Below the pieces are notes generated by a model, which was not told where the DNA came from, searched no databases, and saw only the letters and a program-made list of their open reading frames with translations. This document shows, piece by piece, positions 26,114-36,289 of a stretch of DNA of 36,634 nt. A program made the position numbers and the translations under genes. Source of the DNA: an uncultured Clostridia bacterium (GTDB lineage Bacteria > Bacillota > Clostridia > Oscillospirales > Acutalibacteraceae). The stretch spans positions 1-36,634 of the forward strand of contig CAMHMN010000024.1 of NCBI GenBank assembly GCA_946186245.1, read 5' to 3'. Each line of letters starts with the position of its first letter. The stretch's first letter is position 1.

Positions 26114-28174
26114 TTATTCCTCGCTCTCCGCACGCGTCAAAGGCGTACGTCTGAGATAGGGCAGCACATCCTCGGTATAGGCACGGAGCATCTCTCCGAC
26201 GCTCCATGCCTGTGTGAAGCATCCGCGTGACGTGCAGGTGAAGTCTCCGTCGAAGATTTCCGCAACGCCGTTGATACAGCCGTCGTTCATATGATCGAGG
26301 AAACGCGAGCATATTTCCTTGCAGCGTCTCACGGCGTAGGGTGAATGATCGTGCACTTTGCAGAAGGCCGAAATGTAACCGCCCATCAGGAAGCCCCAAC
26401 TGGTGCCCATATGATAGGCCGCATCGCGGTTGATAAGTCTGCCTATATACTGCGGCTTGTATTCGGCATCGGTATAGGAAAGGGAACGCAGACCGTAGAC
26501 CGTCAGCAGATGCCGGCTCACGCAATCCACAATGGCCAGTTCCTTATGACGGTCGAGCATGGTGTAAGGCAGCGACACGGCATAAATCTGATTGGGACGG
26601 ATTCTGTCCTCACACGGGTCGGCAACATCGTAGAGATAGCCGCCCCTTTCATTCCAGAACTTGCGGACAAAGGAGTCCTTGACCCGTTCGGAAAGCTCGG
26701 TGTAATGCGAGCCGTCGCGGTCGAATTTTTCGCAGAGCATTTCCATGACTTTGAGCGCGTTGTACCATAGGGCGTTGATTTCCACCGGCTTGCCGTGTCT
26801 GGGAGTTACCACCCAATCGCCCACGCGGACGTCCATCCATGTGATCTGATCCTTCTCGCTGCCGCCGTAGACAAGCCCGTCGGAATCCATGCCTATGGAA
26901 AAATCCGTGCCGTTTTCATAGGCGTAGATGATCTTTTTGAGTACAGGGAATATTTCGTCCCTGATGAAGTTGAAGTTTTCCTCTTTGCCGGTGTAATGCA
27001 GGTAGCGTTCCACGGCGTAGAAGTACCACAGCGATCCGTCCATTGTGTTGTACATCGGCTGGTCGGCTGCGGAATTGTGGAAAACGTTGGGGATCAGCCC
27101 GTTCTTTTCGTACATGGCGAAGGATTTGAGAATCTTTTCGCAGTCGTCGAAGCGATGGGTGCAAAGCGTCAGTCCGGTGAGGGCGATCATGGTATCCCTT
27201 CCCCAGTCGGCAAACCAAGGATATCCCGCCATGATGGTTTTAAGCCCCGTGGAGGCGCGGTCAACGATAAACGCGTCGGCAGCCCATGTGAAGTGCGCGG
27301 AGAAAATATCTTTTGCGGGATTGCGCCGGATGAGATCGTACATCCGGTCGGTGTAGTCCTTGACGATAGCAAATCCGTTTTTCGCGGTAATGTCCTCATC
27401 CTCCGTCGAGCAAATCACAAAGAATTTCTTTGTCTCGCCGGGATACACTTTGATCACAGCGTCGTAGGGCGTGAATTGTGAATCAAGCCCCCTGAATCCC
27501 GTCCTCGCGTCGATAGCAAGCAGCTGGTTTTCCTCCGCCGTGAATGTCGGCGCCGCCATGCTGGTGGGCAGCTGCGAACGGTCGAAGTATTCGCCTTCGC
27601 TGATGTAGAATTTGGCGTTGAAGCGGCTGTCGTCGTTCCGGCCGACAAGCATGGTCCTTCCGAACGCCGACGCTTTGAAATTGGAAATATCCGAGGGGGA
27701 ATTGACCCTGTCAATGGGTCGCATGGCAAAAAGGGGCGTAAGATTGACCGTGACAGGCTCGGTCGCTCCGCTCACTGTATAGCACACCGCAACGGTGTTT
27801 TTGCCGTGCTCCATGGCGACGGTCTTCTCAATGGAAATCTCGTCGGTCTGGTAGCAATAAGTCGGCACGATGTCCATGCGGAACTGTTCCAGATATTTGT
27901 ATCCCTCTGTGCAATCGCCGCTGTACTGCTGACATGCCAGATCAAATGTGCGTCTGCCGCAGGTGATCTTCTCCTGTATCTTGGAAAGGACATTCACCCT
28001 GTCAACCGGAGGATTCAGCGACGCGACAAGATAACCCGTGTGAATGCGGGCAGTATCGCCCGTGACCGTACAGCCGGAAAAGCCGCCCAGACCGTTGGTC
28101 AACAGCCATTCCTTCTCGTAGCCCTGCTCGAATGTACGCCAGTTGCTTCTGCCGAATGTGTATTTTGTATGCAT
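26114..28174 (-). CDS. Glycogen debranching enzyme, amylo-alpha-1,6-glucosidase type
   Basis: 686 residues. An N-terminal beta-sandwich-type domain (residues 1-280, 'WLLTNGLGGFSGCTVTGDTARIHTGYLV') precedes the helical (alpha/alpha)6 domain with 'PWFADWGRDTMIALTGL' (about 319-335), 'MDGSLWYFYAVERYL' and 'ITWMDVRVGDWVVTPRHGKPVEINALWYNAL'. This is the TIGR01561/GH133-type debranching enzyme that removes alpha-1,6 glucose stubs from glycogen or related glucans. There is no signal peptide, so it is cytoplasmic. Start is ATG 28174 with a weak AAGGGCGG ribosome binding site. It lies 47 bp downstream of the last LTA-synthase-like gene with no clear terminator between, so it may share that transcript. 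No other glycogen genes are nearby. Confidence 0.95.
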   Translation of the reverse strand: MHTKYTFGRSNWRTFEQGYEKEWLLTNGLGGFSGCTVTGDTARIHTGYLVASLNPPVDRVNVLSKIQEKITCGRRTFDLACQQYSGDCTEGYKYLEQFRMDIVPTYCYQTDEISIEKTVAMEHGKNTVAVCYTVSGATEPVTVNLTPLFAMRPIDRVNSPSDISNFKASAFGRTMLVGRNDDSRFNAKFYISEGEYFDRSQLPTSMAAPTFTAEENQLLAIDARTGFRGLDSQFTPYDAVIKVYPGETKKFFVICSTEDEDITAKNGFAIVKDYTDRMYDLIRRNPAKDIFSAHFTWAADAFIVDRASTGLKTIMAGYPWFADWGRDTMIALTGLTLCTHRFDDCEKILKSFAMYEKNGLIPNVFHNSAADQPMYNTMDGSLWYFYAVERYLHYTGKEENFNFIRDEIFPVLKKIIYAYENGTDFSIGMDSDGLVYGGSEKDQITWMDVRVGDWVVTPRHGKPVEINALWYNALKVMEMLCEKFDRDGSHYTELSERVKDSFVRKFWNERGGYLYDVADPCEDRIRPNQIYAVSLPYTMLDRHKELAIVDCVSRHLLTVYGLRSLSYTDAEYKPQYIGRLINRDAAYHMGTSWGFLMGGYISAFCKVHDHSPYAVRRCKEICSRFLDHMNDGCINGVAEIFDGDFTCTSRGCFTQAWSVGEMLRAYTEDVLPYLRRTPLTRAESEE

Positions 28175-28221
28175 TTTGTCTATACCGCCCTTGCTGCTCT
28201 TTATTTCATTCTCCTGAATAC

Positions 28222-30354
28222 TCAGGATTTCTTCGTTGTTTTGGTGCTTTCAGTCTGCTTATTGTCGCTTTCAGCTGTGCTGCTTGTTTTCTCTTTACTC
28301 TCGGACTTCTCTTTGGTTATAAAGCGATAGATATGCTTGTAATAGTCTTTATCGAGTATCTGCTTGGAGTAGGTGGTCTTGCCTCTGACGATTGTGTTCA
28401 TGCGCTTGATATAAGCGGATTTTTCCGATTCAGAAAGGGTGCAATCCTCGCTTGGCGTGAATTTCTTGGCCGCCGAATTGTACTCGCCCTGTGTGCTGAT
28501 CCATGACCAGCCGTTGACTTTGAGAAGTGCGAAGTGATCGCCCTCCGCCAGAATATCGCTTCCCATGAGCAGTCTGGAGTCGTATTCCAGGCCGAACAGG
28601 TTGGAGAGCGTGGGCAGGATGTCAATGGTCGAGCAGGGCTTGTCTACCACTACAGGCTGCTCCATTGACGAGCACCACAGGATAAACCGGTTGCGGTAAA
28701 GATCGAAATTGTTGCGGATATCGGATTTCGGAATGCCATACAGATCGGCCAGATCGCCGTCGCTCAGTGCGTAGGGATAATGGTCGGCTGCCATCGCAAA
28801 CACCGTGTCATCCAGTTTGCCTGCCGCCTCCAGTTCGTCCACCAATGCCTTGAGCATAAGCTCGACTTCATACTGACAGGCGTAGAATGCCTGCACTCCC
28901 TCGGACTTGTTCTGCAGACGCTCCGGCAGATCCTTTCTGTGGCGGCTTGACATCATATTGCCGGAGAAGGTGTAATTGGCGTGTCCGCTCACACTCATAT
29001 AATATGCGTGGAACGGAACATCAAGACCTATGTAATCTTTCAGCGTTTCTTCCGCCAGTTCCTTGTCGGAACGCGGCCAGCAGTTGCTTTTGAGCTTGAG
29101 CCCGTTTCCTATCGCCTTCCACTTGTAGCCGAAATTGGGATGGGACTTGTTTCTGCCGTAATAGGTATATGTATTATTGTGATAGGCAAATGTCTTGTAG
29201 CCGATCTTCTTGAACTGGTTGCCCAGAACCAACGGTTCGTACTTGGAGCCGCTGGCCTTCAGGCAGTTGGCAGTGGTGTAGAAATTGCCCGTCATGTTGG
29301 AATATTCACCGCTGGCGGTACTTCCTCCCCAGACCGAGTTGTAGGAATTACTGAACACAAATCCTTCGGTGTACATCTTGTAGAGAGTCGGCGTAAATTC
29401 GGGGTCAATGATCTTGTCCGAAAAACCTTCCAGCGTCAGGAAGATCAGATTTTTGCCCTTGAACATGCCGGTGTATTCATTCTGGCGGGTAGGCTGAACG
29501 GATTTGAAGTATTTGTCCATGCTCTTGAGCTGGCTGTTCTTGGTGGATTTGGCGGCTTTGTCAAAATCAATATTCATCGTGTTCCAGCCGTACTCCACCT
29601 TCTTCTCTTCCTCCGGAATAATGGGGTCTTCTTCCGCCGGCGGGTCAATATTCATCTCCTCCACCGGAGCACCGAACATCAGCTGCTTGATATCCAGACG
29701 TGTGGTGTTGAAGATGCCGTAATACTGAAAGCTGGTGTCGAGATCGCTTTGCAGGTAGGTGTAGTAGTAATAGGGCGTGTATTCACCGGTATTGGATTTA
29801 GATTTGCCGATAGAAACGAGAATCGGGAAATAACAGACGGCAAATGCCACCACCGCCACGCCGGCAAAAGGAAGATTTCTTTTCATATCGTCATAAATCA
29901 GATATTTTCCGGCAAAGCACATCAGTGCAAAGGGAACAAAGTAGGCGATGATCATATACCATACGCCGACAGTGGCAACGATCGCTTCTTTCCAGAATTG
30001 CGTGACGTCAGCCGCCTGTCCCAATGTCTGCCACGAAAAAAACGTGTGGAAGTTACTCTGATAAATAGTGTGGAACGAGAACCACACGGCCAGCACACAC
30101 AGCAGCACCTTGCAGAAAATCCTGCGCACCTTGCCGTTAAGCAGCATTGTCACCGTGCTCAGCAGCAAGCCCATTCCCAGCGACAGAAACACCAGGTATC
30201 TGAACTTCTCGTCAAATACGCCTCCGAATATCTTCTGCTTTGCCAACATTTCCATATACACCAGTGAAATCGGCAGATACAGCACACAGATAATATCCCT
30301 GATATAGTCGTTACTGTCCAATGAATCCAATAAACCGTAAATCCTGTCTCTCAT
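28222..30354 (-). CDS. LTA synthase-like membrane sulfatase, copy 3
   Basis: 710 residues. Five membrane helices fill roughly the first 180 residues, then a linker ('GAPVEEMNIDPPAEEDP'), then an extracellular alkaline-phosphatase/sulfatase domain. Catalytic-type residues match LtaS: Glu in 'LTLEGFSDK' (metal), Thr in 'WGGSTASGEYSNMTG' (nucleophile), His in 'MSVSGHANYTF' and Asp-His in 'MAADHYPYALS'. LtaS-type enzymes transfer glycerophosphate to a glycolipid or to other acceptors; the acceptor here is unknown. Unlike its two paralogs, this copy has a C-terminal 25-residue Lys/Ser/Thr/Glu tail. ATG 30354 has AAAGGG 7 nt upstream; ATG 30357 is alternative. It is the last of three tandem paralogs. 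Confidence 0.9.
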   Translation of the reverse strand: MRDRIYGLLDSLDSNDYIRDIICVLYLPISLVYMEMLAKQKIFGGVFDEKFRYLVFLSLGMGLLLSTVTMLLNGKVRRIFCKVLLCVLAVWFSFHTIYQSNFHTFFSWQTLGQAADVTQFWKEAIVATVGVWYMIIAYFVPFALMCFAGKYLIYDDMKRNLPFAGVAVVAFAVCYFPILVSIGKSKSNTGEYTPYYYYTYLQSDLDTSFQYYGIFNTTRLDIKQLMFGAPVEEMNIDPPAEEDPIIPEEEKKVEYGWNTMNIDFDKAAKSTKNSQLKSMDKYFKSVQPTRQNEYTGMFKGKNLIFLTLEGFSDKIIDPEFTPTLYKMYTEGFVFSNSYNSVWGGSTASGEYSNMTGNFYTTANCLKASGSKYEPLVLGNQFKKIGYKTFAYHNNTYTYYGRNKSHPNFGYKWKAIGNGLKLKSNCWPRSDKELAEETLKDYIGLDVPFHAYYMSVSGHANYTFSGNMMSSRHRKDLPERLQNKSEGVQAFYACQYEVELMLKALVDELEAAGKLDDTVFAMAADHYPYALSDGDLADLYGIPKSDIRNNFDLYRNRFILWCSSMEQPVVVDKPCSTIDILPTLSNLFGLEYDSRLLMGSDILAEGDHFALLKVNGWSWISTQGEYNSAAKKFTPSEDCTLSESEKSAYIKRMNTIVRGKTTYSKQILDKDYYKHIYRFITKEKSESKEKTSSTAESDNKQTESTKTTKKS

Positions 30355-30397
30355 CATGTCACCCTTTGCTTTTATAAAAAATAGTTGTTATAATTGG

Positions 30398-32446
30398 TTA
30401 CTTTTTCCCGAATATATGACCGTAGTAATCTTTGTCGAGCATCAGCTTGGAATAAGTCGTCTTGGCTCTGACAATGGCGTTCATGCGTTTCACATATTTT
30501 TTCTGCTCGTCAGCCGAGAGCTTGCAGTCCGCATTTGGTACAAATAACTTCTTGCTGGCGTAGTATTCTCCCTGGGTGCTGATCCACGACCAGCCGTTGA
30601 TCTTCAGCAGCGCGAAATGATCGCCTTCCGCCAGAATATCGCTTCCCATCATCAGCCTGGAATCATATTCCAGATTGAACAGGTTGGATAGCGTCGGCAA
30701 AATATCTATTGTGGAACATGGCTTGTCCACCACAATGGGCTGCGTCATGGAGGGACTCCAGAGAATAAAGCTGTTGCGATAGAGATCGCTGTTATTCCTT
30801 ATCCCCGAAGCAGGCAGATCATATAGCTCCGAAAGAAGGTCGTTGCCGAGCGGATAGGGGTAATGGTCCGCCGTCAGAGCAAACACCGTGTCGTTGAGCT
30901 TGCCGGCTTTATCGAGCTTATCGACTATTTCCTGCAGCATCAGCTCAACCTCGTACTGACAAGCCAGATAAGCCTGATTGGTGCTGGATAACGATTTGTG
31001 CTTGGGCAGAAGATCCTTCTTGTGTCGCTTTGACATGATATTTCCCGAAAATGTGTACCCGGCGTGCCCGCTGAAACTCATGTAGTAGGCATGAAAGGGC
31101 TGATCCAGACTGGCATAATCTCCGACGCTCGCCTCCGCCATTTCCAGGTCGGAATTCGGCCAGCACAGCTTTTTCAGGGTAAGCCCATGGCCTACGGCCT
31201 TCCACTTGTATCCGAAATTGGGGTGCGATTTGTGCCTGTTGTAATAGGTATAGTCGTTGTTGTGATAGGCAATGGTCTTGTATCCCTTGGATTTTAACTG
31301 ATTGCCGAGAACAAACGGCTGATAGGTTTTGGCACTGAGTTCCAGACAATTGGCCGTCGTGTAGAAGTTGCCCGTCATATTGGAATATTCGCCCGAAGCC
31401 GTACTTCCGCCCCACATTGTCACATAAAAATTATTGAAGACAAAGCCCTCGGTAGACATCTTGTAGAGCAAAGGGGTAAATTCCGGATCAATCACTCTGT
31501 AAGAAAAGCCTTCCAGCGTGAACATGACCAGGTTTTTGCCCTCGAACAGACCGGTATACTGGTTTTTCCTCGTAGGAGAAAGCGACTTGAAATATTGATC
31601 CATGGTTTTCAGCTGTTCTGAATTTGTCGAGGCGGCAGCCTTGTCAAAATCAATGTCCATCATGTTCCAGTCGTATTCCTGCGTTTTCTGGGAGTCGTCG
31701 GAGTGGGATTCCTCAACCACCGACGGCTCAATACTGTCAAGATCCAGCTTTTCAACCGGCGCCCCGAAGATAAGCTGCTTGATGTCAAGGCGGGATGTGT
31801 TGAATATTCCATAATACCGATAGCTCTGATCCAGATCATTCTGTATGTAGGTGTAATAATAAAACGGCGTATATTCATCGGTGCGTACCTTGGAACTTCC
31901 TATGTCAGAAAGCGTCAGGAAAAACAAAAGCATAAAGACAAATAATGACACGCCCACTAAAGGGAAGCTCTTTTTCACGCCGTCAGGAACAATGAATATT
32001 TCCAAAGAGCAGAAAACGATCAACGGTACGAAAAAAGCCAGAATGATGTACCATACGCCCGCAGCCGCAGCTAATGCCTCTCTCCAGAATTCCGTCACGT
32101 CCTTCGCCTGACCCAATGTCTGCCACGAAAAAAACGTGTTGAAATTGCTGAAATAGGTGATATGAAAGGAGTACCACACCGCCAGTAGGGCCAATGTAAT
32201 GATGTAAAACAATCTCCGCGGCTTCCCTGAGAGAAGCATTGACACCCCGCTGAGCAAAAAGCCCATTGCCAACGACAAAAAGAAAAGGTAATGGAAGCTG
32301 CCGTCAAACAATTCCCCGAAAGCTCTGAGCTTTGCCAATATCTCCATGTAAACGAGCGCTGTCGGGAAAAACAAAACGTCGACGGCGTTCCTGACAGCGG
32401 TGTGTCTGTCAAGCGAATCTATCGGCTTACTTAATTTTGGTATCAT
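30398..32446 (-). CDS. LTA synthase-like membrane sulfatase, copy 2
   Basis: 682 residues, with the same layout as its neighbours: five N-terminal membrane helices and an outer sulfatase domain. Glu312 (in 'FTLEGFSYR'), Thr349 (in 'WGGSTASGEYSNMTG'), His in 'MSFSGHAGYTF' and Asp-His in 'LTADHYPYPLG' are all present, so it should be active. The linker between domains (about 230-262, acidic and Ser-rich) differs from the other copies. The ATG at 32446 has GGGAGTG about 8 nt upstream. Spacers of about 40-50 bp on both sides with no terminators indicate a single operon of three paralogs. DNA stretches such as the one encoding 'FFSWQTLGQA' are nearly identical to copy 3, supporting tandem duplication. 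Confidence 0.9.
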   Translation of the reverse strand: MIPKLSKPIDSLDRHTAVRNAVDVLFFPTALVYMEILAKLRAFGELFDGSFHYLFFLSLAMGFLLSGVSMLLSGKPRRLFYIITLALLAVWYSFHITYFSNFNTFFSWQTLGQAKDVTEFWREALAAAAGVWYIILAFFVPLIVFCSLEIFIVPDGVKKSFPLVGVSLFVFMLLFFLTLSDIGSSKVRTDEYTPFYYYTYIQNDLDQSYRYYGIFNTSRLDIKQLIFGAPVEKLDLDSIEPSVVEESHSDDSQKTQEYDWNMMDIDFDKAAASTNSEQLKTMDQYFKSLSPTRKNQYTGLFEGKNLVMFTLEGFSYRVIDPEFTPLLYKMSTEGFVFNNFYVTMWGGSTASGEYSNMTGNFYTTANCLELSAKTYQPFVLGNQLKSKGYKTIAYHNNDYTYYNRHKSHPNFGYKWKAVGHGLTLKKLCWPNSDLEMAEASVGDYASLDQPFHAYYMSFSGHAGYTFSGNIMSKRHKKDLLPKHKSLSSTNQAYLACQYEVELMLQEIVDKLDKAGKLNDTVFALTADHYPYPLGNDLLSELYDLPASGIRNNSDLYRNSFILWSPSMTQPIVVDKPCSTIDILPTLSNLFNLEYDSRLMMGSDILAEGDHFALLKINGWSWISTQGEYYASKKLFVPNADCKLSADEQKKYVKRMNAIVRAKTTYSKLMLDKDYYGHIFGKK

Positions 32447-32497
32447 AGAATCACTCCCGTGTTATCTGAGAGAAATGCCCTGTTGCGGTCTTAGATG

Positions 32498-34549
32498 TCA
32501 TTGATTAAAAATATGCCTGTAATAATCATTGGTAAGCATCCGTTTGGAAAACGACACCTTTAACTTGACGATACTGTTCATTTTGTCTACGTAGCTCTTC
32601 CGCTCGTCTTCCGATAATGTGCAGCTCTCGCTCGGGGTAAAGGACTGGTAAATGCCTTTATAGGTTCCTTGCGAACTGATCCACGACCAGCCAGCTACCT
32701 TCAGCAGAGCAAAATGCTCGCAGTCGGACATGATATCGCTGCCTAAAATAATCCTGGAATCATACGTGAGACCAAACATATTGGACAGAGTCGGCATGAT
32801 ATCAATTGCGGAGCAGGGAGCGTCCACTGTAACCGGTTTCGTCATGGAGGGAGTCCACACAATGAAGGAATTGCGGTAAAGCTCAAATTCATAGCGATTG
32901 CGCGTTACGTTAATTCCGTACAGCTCGGCCAACGCTTCGTCGCTGAGTGCATAGGGATAATGATCCGCCGTCATGGCAAACACCGTATCCTGCAACTTGC
33001 CTGTTTTATCCAGCTCTTCCACCAATGTCTGCAGCATCAGCTCCACTTCATACTGGCACGCCAGATACGCCCGGACTTCCGATGAATAGCTGTTGAATTT
33101 TTCCGGCAGATCGTTGCGATGACGTTCGGCCATTCTGTTGCTCGCAAAGGAATAGCCGCAGTGTCCGCTTACCGTGATATAATACACATGAAACGGCACA
33201 TCGAGATTGGAAAAATCGCCCACTGTAGCCGTTGCCATTTCTCTGTCGGAATTCGGCCAGTTTTTGCTTTCCAGAACCAGCCCGTTTCCTATGGCAACCC
33301 ATTTATATCCGAAATTGGGATGGGAAAGATGCCGGTCATAATAGGTGTATGTGTTGTTGTGATAGCCGAATGTCTTGTACCCCAACGCCGAAAACTGATT
33401 GCCCAGTGCAAACGGCTGATAGGTTTCGGCGCTGGTTGGCAGACAGCTTGAATTCTGATAGATATTGCCTGTCAGGTTGGCATATTCCCCCGAAGCCGTG
33501 CTTCCGCCCCAGACAGTGTTGTAATAATTCTTGAAAACAAAGCCTTCCGTTGACATCTTATACAGAAGCGGCGTAAATTCAGGGTCAATCACCTTATGGG
33601 AAAAACCTTCAAGGGTGAGGAAAATCAGATTTTTGCCTTTAAAGATTCCCGTGTATTCGTTTTTGCGTGTGGGAGGAACATTTTTGAAGTATTCGTCCAG
33701 TGTTTTAAGCGTCTGCGAATCGGTGGACGCAGAAGCCTTGTCAAAGTCCAGATCCATGATATTATAGCCGTATTCTTTTTCTTTGTCCGAACCGGAAACG
33801 GTTTCCGAAGAATAACTTTCCTTGGAATGATCCAAAAACGAAAAATCCAGTTTTTCATCCGGTGCGCCGAAAATCAGCTGCTTCACATCGAGCCGGGTGG
33901 CACTCAGGACGCCGTAATACTTGTAACTCATATCCAGATCATTCTGGAGATAGGTGTAGTAATAATACGGAGAATAGTATTCGCCGCTGTCCTTGGTTGA
34001 ATGGATAAAGTACAGCGTCGGCAAATAACACGCCGCGAACAGGGCCAATGACACTGCGGCTGTCGGAACGCTTCTGCGGTGGCTGTCAGGAATGATCCGT
34101 CTGGAAAAAACGCACATCAGGATAAAGGGAACAAAAAGTATCAGTATAACATACCACACGCCGATCACCGCGTTGATGGCTTCTCTCCAGAATTCCGTCA
34201 CATCTTTCGCCTGTCCCAGAGACTGCCACGAAAAGAAGGTGTGGAAGATACTGTAGTAGGTAACGTGGAACGAAAACCAGAATCCCAGTACCCCCAGTAA
34301 GATTTTTGAACAAATCCTCCGCGGCTTGCCGGGAAGGAGCATGACGATAAAATTCATCAGGAAAGCCAGCGATGACGACAGCAGCAATACATAATACACT
34401 GTGCCCTCAAAAATACTGCCAAAAAGCACCAGCTTTGACATAAGTTCCATGAACAGAACCGAAACAGGAAGATAAAGAAATCCGATGATCGGATTCAGAC
34501 CCTTCCTGTCTGCCGATATGCCTTTTTTTGAAATATCTCTTTTTTTCAA
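32498..34549 (-). CDS. LTA synthase-like membrane sulfatase, copy 1
   Basis: 683 residues, first gene of the triplicate cluster. A basic N-terminus ('KKRDISKKGISADRKG') is followed by five membrane helices and the sulfatase domain with Glu314 ('LTLEGFSHK'), Thr351 ('WGGSTASGEYANLTG'), His in 'ITVSGHCGYSF' and Asp-His in 'MTADHYPYALS'. It is more divergent than copies 2 and 3 are from each other (for example 'IYQNSSCL' where they have 'FYTTANCL'). The start is taken as TTG 34549, 9 nt after GGGAGG. The GTG at 34606 has no ribosome binding site and would sit almost at the predicted transcription start. No LtaA- or YpfP-like partner is in the window. Confidence 0.9.
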   Translation of the reverse strand: MKKRDISKKGISADRKGLNPIIGFLYLPVSVLFMELMSKLVLFGSIFEGTVYYVLLLSSSLAFLMNFIVMLLPGKPRRICSKILLGVLGFWFSFHVTYYSIFHTFFSWQSLGQAKDVTEFWREAINAVIGVWYVILILFVPFILMCVFSRRIIPDSHRRSVPTAAVSLALFAACYLPTLYFIHSTKDSGEYYSPYYYYTYLQNDLDMSYKYYGVLSATRLDVKQLIFGAPDEKLDFSFLDHSKESYSSETVSGSDKEKEYGYNIMDLDFDKASASTDSQTLKTLDEYFKNVPPTRKNEYTGIFKGKNLIFLTLEGFSHKVIDPEFTPLLYKMSTEGFVFKNYYNTVWGGSTASGEYANLTGNIYQNSSCLPTSAETYQPFALGNQFSALGYKTFGYHNNTYTYYDRHLSHPNFGYKWVAIGNGLVLESKNWPNSDREMATATVGDFSNLDVPFHVYYITVSGHCGYSFASNRMAERHRNDLPEKFNSYSSEVRAYLACQYEVELMLQTLVEELDKTGKLQDTVFAMTADHYPYALSDEALAELYGINVTRNRYEFELYRNSFIVWTPSMTKPVTVDAPCSAIDIMPTLSNMFGLTYDSRIILGSDIMSDCEHFALLKVAGWSWISSQGTYKGIYQSFTPSESCTLSEDERKSYVDKMNSIVKLKVSFSKRMLTNDYYRHIFNQ

Positions 34550-34614
34550 CTTGCGTACCCTCCCGCTTTGGTCGATGATTTTCTGTGATAATACCACCAC
34601 CTGCACATTTTTTT

Positions 34615-34643
34615 ATTATAGCAGATTTATAATAAAAATGCAA
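34615..34643 (-). promoter_or_regulatory. Promoter of the LTA-synthase-like cluster
   Basis: On the minus strand, TATAAT at 34615-34620 with a weak -35 (TTGCAT, 34638-34643) at 17 bp. It lies directly after the terminator of the radical SAM transcript. Confidence 0.45.
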
Positions 34644-34646
34644 CGA

Positions 34647-34717
34647 AAAATTCAAGGCTCCTGGCGCTTTTATACCCTTTCCGTGCTGATTTTAAGCGCC
34701 TGCAAGCCTTGAATTTT
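34647..34717 (-). terminator. Terminator of the peptide/radical SAM operon
   Basis: Outer stem 34647-34659 with 34705-34717 (13 bp, perfect) and inner stem GGCGCTT (34663-34669) with AAGCGCC (34694-34700). The minus-strand side runs into T residues. Confidence 0.8.
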
Positions 34718-34740
34718 GTTATTTTTGTTATTCATCCTGT

Positions 34741-35799
34741 TCACGAAATATACCGTTTCACAAAATGTGCTTCGTCCGTCTCCAGCATCTTTCTCGCCAT
34801 CTCGTCGGCGCGCGTGATAAGGATGCGCTGGTAGGCACACTGTTCTCCGCTCACCTGTGCCATGTCGCCGCACTGCTGGAAATTCAGGCAGGCGCAGTCG
34901 TTGACACATCTTTTTTTCATGGCGCAGTCTTCGCAAAAGGACGGGCTTTTCAGACTGCTGCGGTAGACGGCTTCTCTCCGCGACACATCAACGCCCTCCG
35001 CAACACTTCCCATTTGATATTCCGGAATTCCTCCGAACTGAATGCAGGGGTATATCTTTCCGTCCCAGTCGACGTAGGGCTTTCTCATTCCCAGCTTACA
35101 GACGTGACACGGCCTGTCCTTCGTCACGGACAGTATTTTTTCCTCAAAGGGATTGAAATAAACGTCCTCTCCCCTGCAAAATTTTTCCAGTATCAGATCG
35201 CCCAGCATTCCGAGCTGCCGTGATAATTCTTCCATGCTGTCTTCGTCCCAGCCGGCACAGGGACGGGAATCGACGGCTAAATTGAAGCGCTTTACCCCTA
35301 CGTCAATCAGGTGTTTCAGAGAATCGTACACCGTTCCCGCCGTTTCGGGCGTGGTGGTCGCCATGATGAAGGCGCCGGGAAGGTATTGCAGCAGCAGCCG
35401 GAGCTTTTCGTCCAGCGCGGAAAGGCATTCCTTCCCTCCCGCGTCAAGCCGGTTGACCCGGCTCATCAGTCCGTCGTGGGACATGGCGATTTCGATTTTT
35501 TCATTGACGGCAAACCGGAGGAATTCGTCGTCCAGCAGCAAGCCGTTGGTGGTCATGTTCCAGCTGAACTGTATTTCCGAAAACCGCTTGGAATACTCCA
35601 CACATTTGTAAATGAGCGGCTTGCAGAGCAGCGGTTCCCCTCCGAAGAAGGAAACGCCCACTTGCTTCCCGCCGTCGCTCACCGCCATGTCAAGGGCTTT
35701 CAGCGCCGTTGCCTCAGTCATATAAACATTCTCGTGCATTTCAAAGCAGTAACGGCAGCGCAGGTTGCACTGTTTGGTGAGAATTAAAGAGATATTCAT
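34741..35799 (-). CDS. Radical SAM/SPASM peptide-modifying enzyme
   Basis: 352 residues. The radical SAM cluster motif CxxxCxxC is at Cys11, Cys15 and Cys18 ('CNLRCRYC'), with 'FFGGEPLLC' (SAM-binding GGEP) at 51-59. The C-terminal third has ten cysteines (231, 234, 252, 289, 292, 298, 302, 304, 310, 321), the SPASM pattern for auxiliary iron-sulfur clusters found in maturases of ribosomally made peptides. The start ATG at 35799 is 3 nt after the upstream peptide gene's stop with AGGGATGA at the right distance, so the two are translationally coupled. The likely substrate is that 100-residue peptide. The reaction (for example a thioether, C-C or other crosslink) cannot be read from sequence. 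I could not place it in a named subfamily with confidence. Confidence 0.93.
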   Translation of the reverse strand: MNISLILTKQCNLRCRYCFEMHENVYMTEATALKALDMAVSDGGKQVGVSFFGGEPLLCKPLIYKCVEYSKRFSEIQFSWNMTTNGLLLDDEFLRFAVNEKIEIAMSHDGLMSRVNRLDAGGKECLSALDEKLRLLLQYLPGAFIMATTTPETAGTVYDSLKHLIDVGVKRFNLAVDSRPCAGWDEDSMEELSRQLGMLGDLILEKFCRGEDVYFNPFEEKILSVTKDRPCHVCKLGMRKPYVDWDGKIYPCIQFGGIPEYQMGSVAEGVDVSRREAVYRSSLKSPSFCEDCAMKKRCVNDCACLNFQQCGDMAQVSGEQCAYQRILITRADEMARKMLETDEAHFVKRYIS

Positions 35800-35802
35800 G
35801 AT

Positions 35803-36105
35803 TCATCCCTGCACCGACGACACATACGCCACATCGCCGTCGAGCGTGAGCGTTCCGTCTTCCGATGAACAGGCGGAAGGATCGCTTGCCAAATCCGAAT
35901 CGGATACGCCTTCCACCACCATATAACCGTCGTACTCAGGCGGCCGGTATTCCATATTGCCGGAAATCGAATTCTGGAAGCAGCCGGTCAGACCCCCGAC
36001 CACCGCAGCCGCGGCAGCGGCTGCGACAACCGCCTTTCTGACGGTGCCGGACTCGGATATTTCGCCGTAACCCGCGTCGTACTTTTCAACCTTGTGTAGT
36101 TTCAT
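35803..36105 (-). CDS. Lipoprotein-like precursor peptide, putative radical SAM substrate
   Basis: 100 residues. A 24-residue polar N-terminus ('MKLHKVEKYDAGYGE', then 'SGTVRK') precedes an Ala/Val-rich hydrophobic stretch (25-38) and a lipobox 'GLTGC', making Cys42 a probable lipidation site. The remaining 58 residues contain repeated Asp-Gly turns: 'EYDGYMVVEG', 'SEDGTLTL', 'LDGDVAY'. There is one further Cys (79). The ATG at 36105 has GAGGTGA about 6-8 nt upstream; the in-frame start at 36132 lies upstream of that site. Size, the overlap-like 3-nt spacing to a SPASM enzyme and the leader-like N-terminus suggest a modified, surface-anchored peptide. Similar systems have been noted in Ruminococcus and Fibrobacter ('FibroRumin') and Bacteroidetes (rSAM/lipoprotein), but membership is not shown here. 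Confidence 0.8.
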   Translation of the reverse strand: MKLHKVEKYDAGYGEISESGTVRKAVVAAAAAAAVVGGLTGCFQNSISGNMEYRPPEYDGYMVVEGVSDSDLASDPSACSSEDGTLTLDGDVAYVSSVQG

Positions 36106-36215
36106 GTTATTCACCTCTTTTTTGTATTTCAATTATATAACCTGGAAATTGCGAAAATGGTTGGCGGCCAATCTCCTTTATTCATACTAATTCTCAATCA
36201 AAAGCAGACAATTAG

Positions 36216-36261
36216 TATAAAAAATTCCCCGATATTCTTCTTGCGAAAAAACATCGGGGAA
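36216..36261 (-). terminator. Terminator of the oxaloacetate decarboxylase gene
   Basis: Stem TTCCCCGAT (36225-36233) with ATCGGGGAA (36253-36261), 19-nt loop, followed on the minus strand by a run of T residues. Confidence 0.9.
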
Positions 36262-36289
36262 CGGTTTCTTAACCAGCGGATGGAAAAAA

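Follow-up and report, generated by a model that had tools for sequence, protein, structure and literature searches.

The Lipoprotein–Enzyme Gene Pair

The stretch of DNA considered here, hereafter called the window, comprises 36,634 nucleotides of contig CAMHMN010000024.1 from an uncultured Clostridia bacterium of the family Acutalibacteraceae (GenBank assembly GCA_946186245.1), and carries on its minus strand the gene of a small lipoprotein precursor next to that of a radical S-adenosylmethionine (SAM) enzyme of the SPASM type. Taking into account the anatomy and the distribution of both genes, the pair probably yields a surface peptide that is anchored by a lipid and carries a radical modification, the enzyme acting on heptads centred on a Gly residue. 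The elements of the locus are the following:

35803..36105, minus strand: gene of the lipoprotein precursor (100 aa), with its stop codon counted in (open reading frame list, matches within the genus)
36112..36118, minus strand: ribosome-binding site AGAGGTG, 6 nt ahead of the ATG (sequence inspection)
34741..35799, minus strand: radical SAM/SPASM enzyme gene, 352 aa (open reading frame list, profile matches)
36224..36262, minus strand: intrinsic terminator which closes the oadA-like gene and precedes the pair (terminator scan)
34640..34735, minus strand: terminator-like element behind the pair, made of a long stem-loop and a T run (folding, −29.7 kcal/mol, z −4.5)

An original prediction, made from the DNA letters alone, had described a 100-residue peptide with a lipobox Cys42, encoded 3 nt before a SPASM radical SAM enzyme with three SAM-cluster and ten C-terminal cysteines. 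This anatomy holds: the open reading frame (ORF) list gives the 100-residue peptide with Cys42 located after AVVAAAAAAAVVGGLTG, both genes lie on the minus strand with a gap of 3 nt between the precursor stop (35803) and the enzyme (35799), and the enzyme contains C11, C15 and C18 together with ten cysteines from residue 231 onward. The precursor starts at the ATG at 36105, an alternative upstream TTG leading to a protein of 109 aa. The isolation of the pair by terminators is likewise borne out by the upstream terminator and the strong downstream stem, which was absent from the list of the simple terminator scan and came from a separate folding analysis. As had also been stated, neither a protease nor an exporter lies alongside, the flanking genes consisting of an oadA-like gene and genes for sulfatase-fold proteins. 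Compared with five orthologues, the precursor displays a ratio of nonsynonymous to synonymous substitution (dN divided by dS) of approximately 0.10–0.23, with dS values of 0.92–1.50, and on this measure the gene evolves under purifying selection. Since it is, in addition, matched in all 18 genomes of its genus that were examined, the precursor is more than a chance ORF.

Leader, Signal Sequence and Lipobox of the Precursor

The N-terminal half of the precursor is built from two successive elements:

36034..36105, minus strand: leader, residues 1–24 (MKLHKVEKYDAGYGEISESGTVRK); Y9, G12 and Y13 are shared by all ten aligned leaders of the genus
35980..36033, minus strand: hydrophobic stretch and lipobox LTGC (residues 39–42), the Cys42 codon at 35980–35982

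The window peptide has no Pfam or NCBIfam match at E ≤ 1. Depending on the group, the precursors start with sequences such as MKLHKVEKYDAGY in the window's genus (g1, 18 genomes, own included), MKITPAKNYKKPLY in the genus g333 and MNLRPVKKYKAPTYP in the domain type described below, followed by a hydrophobic run and then by a Cys. The leader pattern reads K-x-E-x-Y-x-x-G-Y in g1 and mostly Y-x-x-P-x-Y elsewhere. The leader-like N-terminus of the original prediction is thus a conserved leader indeed, with the correction that it forms a distinct element ahead of the signal sequence; it is not merely part of the signal peptide, because small proteins devoid of a lipobox carry a leader-like start too.

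At E < 0.01, a leader profile matches 37 of the 43 loci of the enzyme family, a count obtained partly by construction, without a single match among the 45 radical SAM loci used as controls; the six family loci missed are those of G004, G733, G752 and G901 (the last two from g333) and two loci at contig ends. The profile replaced a permissive regular expression that spanned leader and lipobox, because the latter matched 21 of the 45 control loci, where many of the matches were judged by eye to be membrane proteins, besides 36 of the 43 family loci. Applied to 60 genomes, a g1 leader model yields 26 whole-model matches (E ≤ 4e-13), all within the 18 g1 genomes and all adjoining the enzyme or, in G004, oadA. 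Further matches are partial and begin at 5e-4; some occur at E ≤ 0.5 in 45 of the 60 genomes, mostly covering the lipobox half only.

The strict lipobox [LVI][ASTVI][GAS]C is found in 42 of the 58 precursor leaders compared, which had been picked for having a hydrophobic stretch and a lipobox Cys. With such a stretch and Cys in the precursor, and with one LspA and seven Lgt homologues above cut-off encoded in the genome, the peptide has the sequence features of a bacterial lipoprotein and its lipidation is predicted, which fits the normal lipoprotein export route that had been suggested for it. These Lgt homologues, all seven of them above the Pfam cut-off, are scattered over contigs C61, C58 (two), C7, C66, C1 and C12 of the 2.6-Mb genome (G000).

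The Gly-Centred Heptads

Three heptads occur in the outer part of the window peptide:

35947..35967, minus strand: heptad 1, ISGNMEY, residues 47–53 (motif count and alignment)
35914..35934, minus strand: heptad 2, YDGYMVV, residues 58–64 (motif count and alignment)
35824..35844, minus strand: heptad 3, LDGDVAY, residues 88–94 (the best conserved segment of the peptide)

They are copies of a heptad Phi-x-G-[D/E/N]-Phi-x-Phi which is repeated along the outer segment of the small precursors, the middle copy of the window peptide having a Y after the Gly instead of D/E/N. By count, the successive positions are occupied by L/Y/I/V, x, G, D/E/N/G, V/M/E/T/A, x and Y/V/I. An alignment in search of invariant residues after the lipobox had been proposed, and it points to the heptad glycines: in 14 hand-picked aligned g1 precursors of the window's type, all three are kept in at least 13 peptides, and the mean column identity amounts to 0.94 for heptad 3, 0.81 for heptad 2 and 0.63 for the partly gapped heptad 1, next to 0.67 for the linker and 0.52 for the tail. 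The shorter pattern [LIMVYF]xG[DENAGQ] was observed 67 times in 25 g1 bodies from 17 genomes, versus 15.9 ± 3.7 in shuffled sequences, and 27 times in 10 g333 bodies from 5 genomes, versus 6.6 ± 2.3; in G018 and G047, six occurrences stand against 2.0 in shuffles, 36 of 5000 shuffles being as high. G004 and G984 contributed no body to these counts, and the bodies of G015 and G047 as well as the second body of G008 were added by hand.

With respect to cysteines, the 35 short bodies contain 111 heptads versus 27 Cys, and 13 of the bodies possess heptads without any Cys; once a single spurious frame (G461, L089, 387–572) is removed, these figures become 110 heptads, 27 Cys and 12 Cys-free heptad bodies out of 34. 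A Cys occurs within four of the 111 heptads, 38 heptads are devoid of any F/Y/W/H, and the outer part of the window peptide holds a single Cys, residue 79. The interpretation of the original prediction, a unit akin to those of the ribosomally synthesized and post-translationally modified peptides (RiPPs), is supported, with the correction that the probable targets are the Gly-centred heptads, not the cysteines.

The Radical SAM/SPASM Enzyme

Two cysteine-rich regions organize the enzyme:

35746..35769, minus strand: SAM-cluster motif C11xxxC15xxC18 (40 of 40 family enzymes aligned)
34837..35100, minus strand: SPASM region C234..C321, including the extra C304 of a CxC (alignment)

The enzyme belongs to the radical SAM superfamily, with 49.2 bits on Pfam PF04055 (Radical_SAM, cut-off 29.5), and the three SAM-cluster cysteines are invariant among the 40 family enzymes aligned. 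SPASM regions display the seven-Cys pattern Cx9-15Gx4C - Cx2Cx5Cx3C - C, which is readily recognized in the enzyme as C234..G247xxxxC252, C289xxC292x5C298x3C302 and C321, and makes it a SPASM member; the Pfam SPASM model gives 18.0 bits, just below its cut-off of 21.5. C289, C292, C298 and C321 are kept in 40 of 40 family enzymes, and C234, C252, C302 and C304 in 38. C304, which forms a CxC with C302, is replaced by Ala in all five outgroup enzymes compared, SCIFF maturases above cut-off (535–610 vs. 425 bits, TIGR03974), and is by this alignment a hallmark of the family. The two exceptions, G461 (L089) and G839 (L122), keep the SAM cluster and have lost C234, C252, C302 and C304 together, a joint loss which points to C304 being a ligand of a cluster rather than a free thiol in catalysis; both enzymes look as if one auxiliary cluster had gone. 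In the enzyme tree, the family forms one clade (99/98).

Among the best 25 of 73 NCBIfam matches of the enzyme, no model reaches its cut-off, and the top ranks are taken by PapB (NF047865), then by the nif11, SCIFF and quinohemoprotein maturases. The PapB model ranks first for the three family enzymes scanned (171.8 bits for the window enzyme, 189.8 and 230.7 for the others), and the precursor resembles PapA in its repeated target motif; however, the window enzyme remains well below the PapB cut-off of 340 bits and its precursor is a predicted lipoprotein. The rank is no sign of close kinship, because true SCIFF maturases reach 251.6–274.8 bits on this PapB model, more than the window enzyme does. 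With the SCIFF maturases (TIGR03974) the enzyme shares the radical SAM and SPASM parts as well as the closest solved structure by sequence, 5wgg (98 bits), which we take to be the SCIFF maturase CteB. It differs from them by a score of 114.5 vs. 425 bits, by C304, by the lack of the N-terminal part and by a partner which is not a six-Cys peptide. Residue 5 of the enzyme aligns with residue 101 of 5wgg; the enzyme therefore begins at the radical SAM core and has no room for an N-terminal RiPP recognition element (RRE). In CteB, the leader-binding RRE is carried by the N-terminal part, and PqqE has a separate PqqD (PMC8326336). A separate RRE adjoining the pair was considered and rejected, the two PqqD-like ORFs of the genome being located on contig C9, not near the window. 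These two ORFs (G000:C9:25075–25281, plus strand, and 28088–28273, minus strand) lie about 3 kb apart, perhaps in another peptide-modification locus. An assignment to the anti-phage viperins (PADLOC pVip, 60.5 bits, E 4e-17) was also discarded, because the match covers only the radical SAM core (residues 3–117) and SPASM peptide maturases score far higher.

Distribution of the Pair

The enzyme was searched in overlapping samples of 60 genomes of relatives, 300 of the family, 394 of the order, 391 of the class and 398 of the phylum. Its family occurs in 43 genomes, 18 of g1 (own included) and 25 others, and is uncommon, being present in 16 of the 391 class genomes and in 4 of the 398 phylum genomes, numbers which both include the genome of the window. 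In the family and order searches, a gap separates the lowest member (339.5 bits) from the next matches (at most 205.6 bits), and the five next-best matches tested below the gap are SCIFF maturases above cut-off. The class and phylum searches were made at E ≤ 1e-75 only, the weakest match accepted being G733 with 276.8 bits. In G733, a membrane protein with VMLSGAVEVV (ORF at 2520) follows the enzyme frame. Four loci from relatives belong to metagenome-assembled genomes of Clostridia/Bacillota, one of them from goat omasum, and the host species is probably gut-dwelling.

The conservation of the peptide next to the enzyme in related genomes had been set beforehand as the test that could refute the pair, and its outcome is favourable. 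All 18 g1 genomes contain a match to the peptide (E 3e-62 to 0.0033, the weakest two in G001 and G006), which adjoins the enzyme in 17 of them; in G004, the peptide is located beside oadA and the enzyme beside an argJ-like gene, on different contigs. Several g1 genomes possess two tandem precursors of different type. Among the other 25 genomes, 22 encode a leader-bearing lipoprotein next to the enzyme and in the same orientation, up to three in tandem, this number including G764, whose lipoprotein runs off the stretch examined; in the contig-end loci of G135 and G683, the C-terminus of such a lipoprotein lies right upstream of the enzyme. The leader-bearing status was judged by eye, aided by the regular expression and the leader profile. 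The expression trimmed several starts and missed the precursors of G015, G047, G030, G966, G984 and G1293, the true precursors of G461, and one of the two precursors in both G008 and G898; apart from G015, G047 and the second precursor of G008, whose bodies were added to the heptad counts, the leaders of the missed precursors entered the lipobox comparison. As in RiPP systems, a precursor gene thus lies beside the maturase gene and its leader is conserved, partly below profile significance between genera.

Other Kinds of Precursors

Besides the lipoproteins, five small g1 proteins combine a leader-like start with a motif-like site, without a lipobox:

L162, 1848–2153, plus strand: lipobox-free protein
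L163, 1977–2255, plus strand: lipobox-free protein
L164, 1164–1364, plus strand: lipobox-free protein
L165, 1387–1635, minus strand: lipobox-free protein
L166, 1389–1625, minus strand: lipobox-free protein

Two of these ORFs (G003 and G017) are far from the enzyme, on other contigs, and match the leader half alone, and three (G012, G013 and G005) sit between the lipoprotein and the enzyme, the first two as weak leader-model matches and the third found by eye. In alignment, all five share the leader Tyr and the Gly of a late FYGDII / FQGDII / YYGYDM / ICGNMS site; none has a hydrophobic run of 12, and four give nothing above cut-off in NCBIfam or Pfam.

In many other genera, the partners are lipoproteins of about 215–320 aa with the same sort of leader. 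These domain-type precursors consist of a Gly-rich stretch after the lipobox (e.g., IFEHGDGRGSFGC) and of a domain ending in LREQVRDFIEWLKAQGII. Nine partner lipoproteins give nothing above cut-off in NCBIfam or Pfam, and the domain-type profile finds no PDB relative at E ≤ 1. The unnamed family of domain-type lipoproteins includes L126, L125, L113, L063, L087 and others. In G341, LDGDVIM, LEGEPAL and LAGAPPI take the place of the Gly-rich stretch, and these heptad-like repeats link the short and the domain-type precursors. The domain-type precursors fall on one side of a branch of the enzyme tree (83/81), and such partners suggest that full-size surface proteins may also undergo radical modification.

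Proposed Pathway and Rival Explanations

Whereas the gene anatomy and its conservation are observed, every enzymatic step proposed below is inferred from sequence. The enzyme would dock on the precursor leader (K-x-E-x-Y-x-x-G-Y in g1) without a fused RRE and, in the cytosol, would alter a carbon atom within each heptad or adjacent to it. The unfolded modified product would be exported by Sec; Lgt would lipidate Cys42 and signal peptidase II (LspA) would then cut, this single cut removing leader and signal together, and residues 42–100 would remain on the outer face of the membrane. The reaction is probably Cys-independent, and may be a C–C or other cross-link, an epimerisation at C-alpha, or an alteration of the Gly or of the residue that follows. 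One Cys thioether per heptad was rejected on the counts given above (111 heptads, 27 Cys, 35 bodies), a PapB-type thioether being impossible at most heptads because these outnumber the cysteines four to one; a cyclophane at an aromatic residue was rejected as the general chemistry in view of the 38 heptads without F/Y/W/H. More tentatively, and with somewhat less than even chances, the pair may represent a RiPP class with signal peptidase II as the leader protease, a Cys-independent modification of each heptad, installed by one radical SAM/SPASM clade, and a leader which also addresses lipobox-free and unlinked proteins to the same enzyme. With the leader placed ahead of a lipoprotein signal, one cut would remove both, and the product would stay on the cell instead of being set free; a radical chemistry that is probably Cys-free would occur in a group of enzymes for which the named relatives with the highest scores make thioethers. 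The conserved Clostridia enzyme clade, with its several kinds of precursors, offers a leader and a target motif testable with short peptides.

Several observations weigh against this interpretation. The residue class of the heptad was picked after the sequences had been seen, and the heptad could simply be a β-strand pattern, as hinted by a weak Bactofilin match (0.053). Many domain-type precursors show HGxGxGSxGC rather than a heptad, and the short-repeat precursors are split in the enzyme tree, which requires two changes for them. A motif-like site arises in 13–42% of shuffled lipobox-free bodies, so that for these proteins the motif is weak evidence; the leader is stronger evidence, except in G005, whose protein has YEGAF in place of YxAGY. 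The proteins of G003 and G017 are near-copies. When leader models were built leaving out one genus at a time, the omitted genus was recovered at 0.06–8 or not at all for g1, at 3.4 for g2 and at 0.0059–2.2 or not at all for g333; g31 was recovered at 0.025 and the domain-type genera at 1e-4 to 9e-16, the best control reaching 2.7 in the run without g1 and 0.043 over all runs. Owing to these weak matches, leader homology across genera rests partly on eye and position. In G733, no leader lipoprotein occurs in the flank examined, and the enzyme frame as assembled (L124, 1501–2415) is devoid of the N-terminal SAM-cluster motif. Finally, as the window enzyme scores below the SCIFF maturases on the PapB model, a nearest named relative in PapB says little on the chemistry.

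A lipid-anchored ranthipeptide, in which PapB/SCIFF-type thioethers would connect the few outer Cys with acidic residues of the heptads, is an unlikely alternative. In CX3D motifs, PapB connects the Cys with the Asp; it can also use Glu as the acidic partner and tolerates 0–6 intervening residues (PMC9413430). The ranking of the NCBIfam maturases and of 5wgg agrees with such a chemistry, as do the outer Cys79 of the window peptide and the GSxGC kept in many domain-type precursors; the small number of Cys per heptad, the Cys-free heptad bodies, the wide distance from the PapB and SCIFF cut-offs and the Ala of the SCIFF maturases at the place of C304 speak against it. The heptads do not follow the Cys-X3-Asp arrangement of PapA, as judged from the four Cys-bearing heptads rather than from a CX3D scan. 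Slightly less credit is given to a protein-modifying system, the enzyme altering any leader-bearing protein and the heptad being a β-strand stabilised by the change. The heptad alternates like a strand, and the three kinds of partners (lipoproteins, lipobox-free proteins and 215–320-aa domain proteins), two members being unlinked, would be readily accounted for; however, the conserved adjacency, the tandem small precursors and the focus of conservation on heptads 2 and 3 rather indicate a dedicated pair. The protein-modifying and precursor/maturase readings overlap.

A role of the enzyme in maturing the adjacent LtaS-like protein of sulfatase fold, in the manner of an anaerobic sulfatase-maturating enzyme (anSME) and with the lipoprotein as a bystander, is very improbable. 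Behind the enzyme, 10 of the 18 genus loci contain an LtaS-like match (in L013, over 38 residues before the contig end), and the anSME model gives 70.9 bits; this score stays far from the TIGR03942 cut-off of 349 bits, no LtaS-like match was found in the other eight genus loci, several of which have little downstream sequence, and the peptide is present in 18 of 18. Moreover, the window protein encoded at 32498–34606 shows VWGGSTASGEY, which we take to be an LtaS-like Thr site, and no CxPxR motif by reading (SxPxR was not examined). Even less probable is an ordinary lipoprotein beside an unrelated radical SAM gene. Such a coincidence would suit the fact that the modification is proposed from sequence, but it hardly agrees with the co-conservation in 42 of 43 genomes (two of them via a truncated partner only), with the replicated precursors, with leader-like starts lacking a signal peptide or with the clustering of precursor kinds on the enzyme tree. 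The lipid-anchored peptide modified at its Gly-centred heptads thus remains the preferred reading.

Comparison with Known Systems

The TIGR04133/TIGR04134 families (rSAM_w_lipo and lipo_with_rSAM) similarly consist, by model name, of a radical SAM/SPASM enzyme paired with a lipoprotein. A check of the window enzyme against TIGR04133 had been proposed, and this family is not among the best 25 of its 73 NCBIfam matches, the window peptide matching none; a TIGR04134 search of the genome gives at best 18.6 bits (cut-off 39.8), on contig C9. The window pair and TIGR04133/TIGR04134 are convergent kinds built from different enzyme lineages. No mention of either family name was found in the open-licence PMC papers searched, nor was a radical SAM-modified lipoprotein recognised there from titles and abstract starts, and the main text of a 2021 review (PMC8326336) uses neither 'lipoprotein' nor 'signal peptide'. 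The epithet 'undescribed' of the original prediction holds for the enzyme/precursor family in the libraries searched, and fails for the association of a radical SAM enzyme with a lipoprotein, a kind already modelled. The family, which has no name in these libraries, most likely makes modified surface lipopeptides and is counted with the known kind of radical SAM enzymes acting on peptides.

Sec signals are described as rare among RiPP precursors in PMC12452194, which deals with the bufferins, RiPPs modified by multinuclear non-haem iron-dependent oxidative (MNIO) enzymes, and about 16% of the Buf2 precursors have predicted lipoprotein signals (PMC12452194). The bufferin precursors resemble the window precursor in possessing a Sec signal peptide. 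They are characterized by an MNIO enzyme, a Cys-containing core and a partner protein, whereas the window pair comprises a radical SAM enzyme, a separate leader ahead of the signal sequence and Gly-centred heptads.

A second pair occurs in the same genome (L003, contig C35), with an enzyme at 1387–2646 and a lipoprotein with VCVYGPPPAY at 2474–2704, both on the minus strand. This enzyme scores 274.6 bits on TIGR04133, versus a cut-off of 425, and the YG step of the lipoprotein is presumably reminiscent of splicease sites.

In the window, three tandem sulfatase-fold proteins of 682–711 aa are encoded on the minus strand at 28222–34606, each with the Pfam Sulfatase model above cut-off. The one next to the pair is weakly LtaS-like, with 99.2 vs. 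970 bits.

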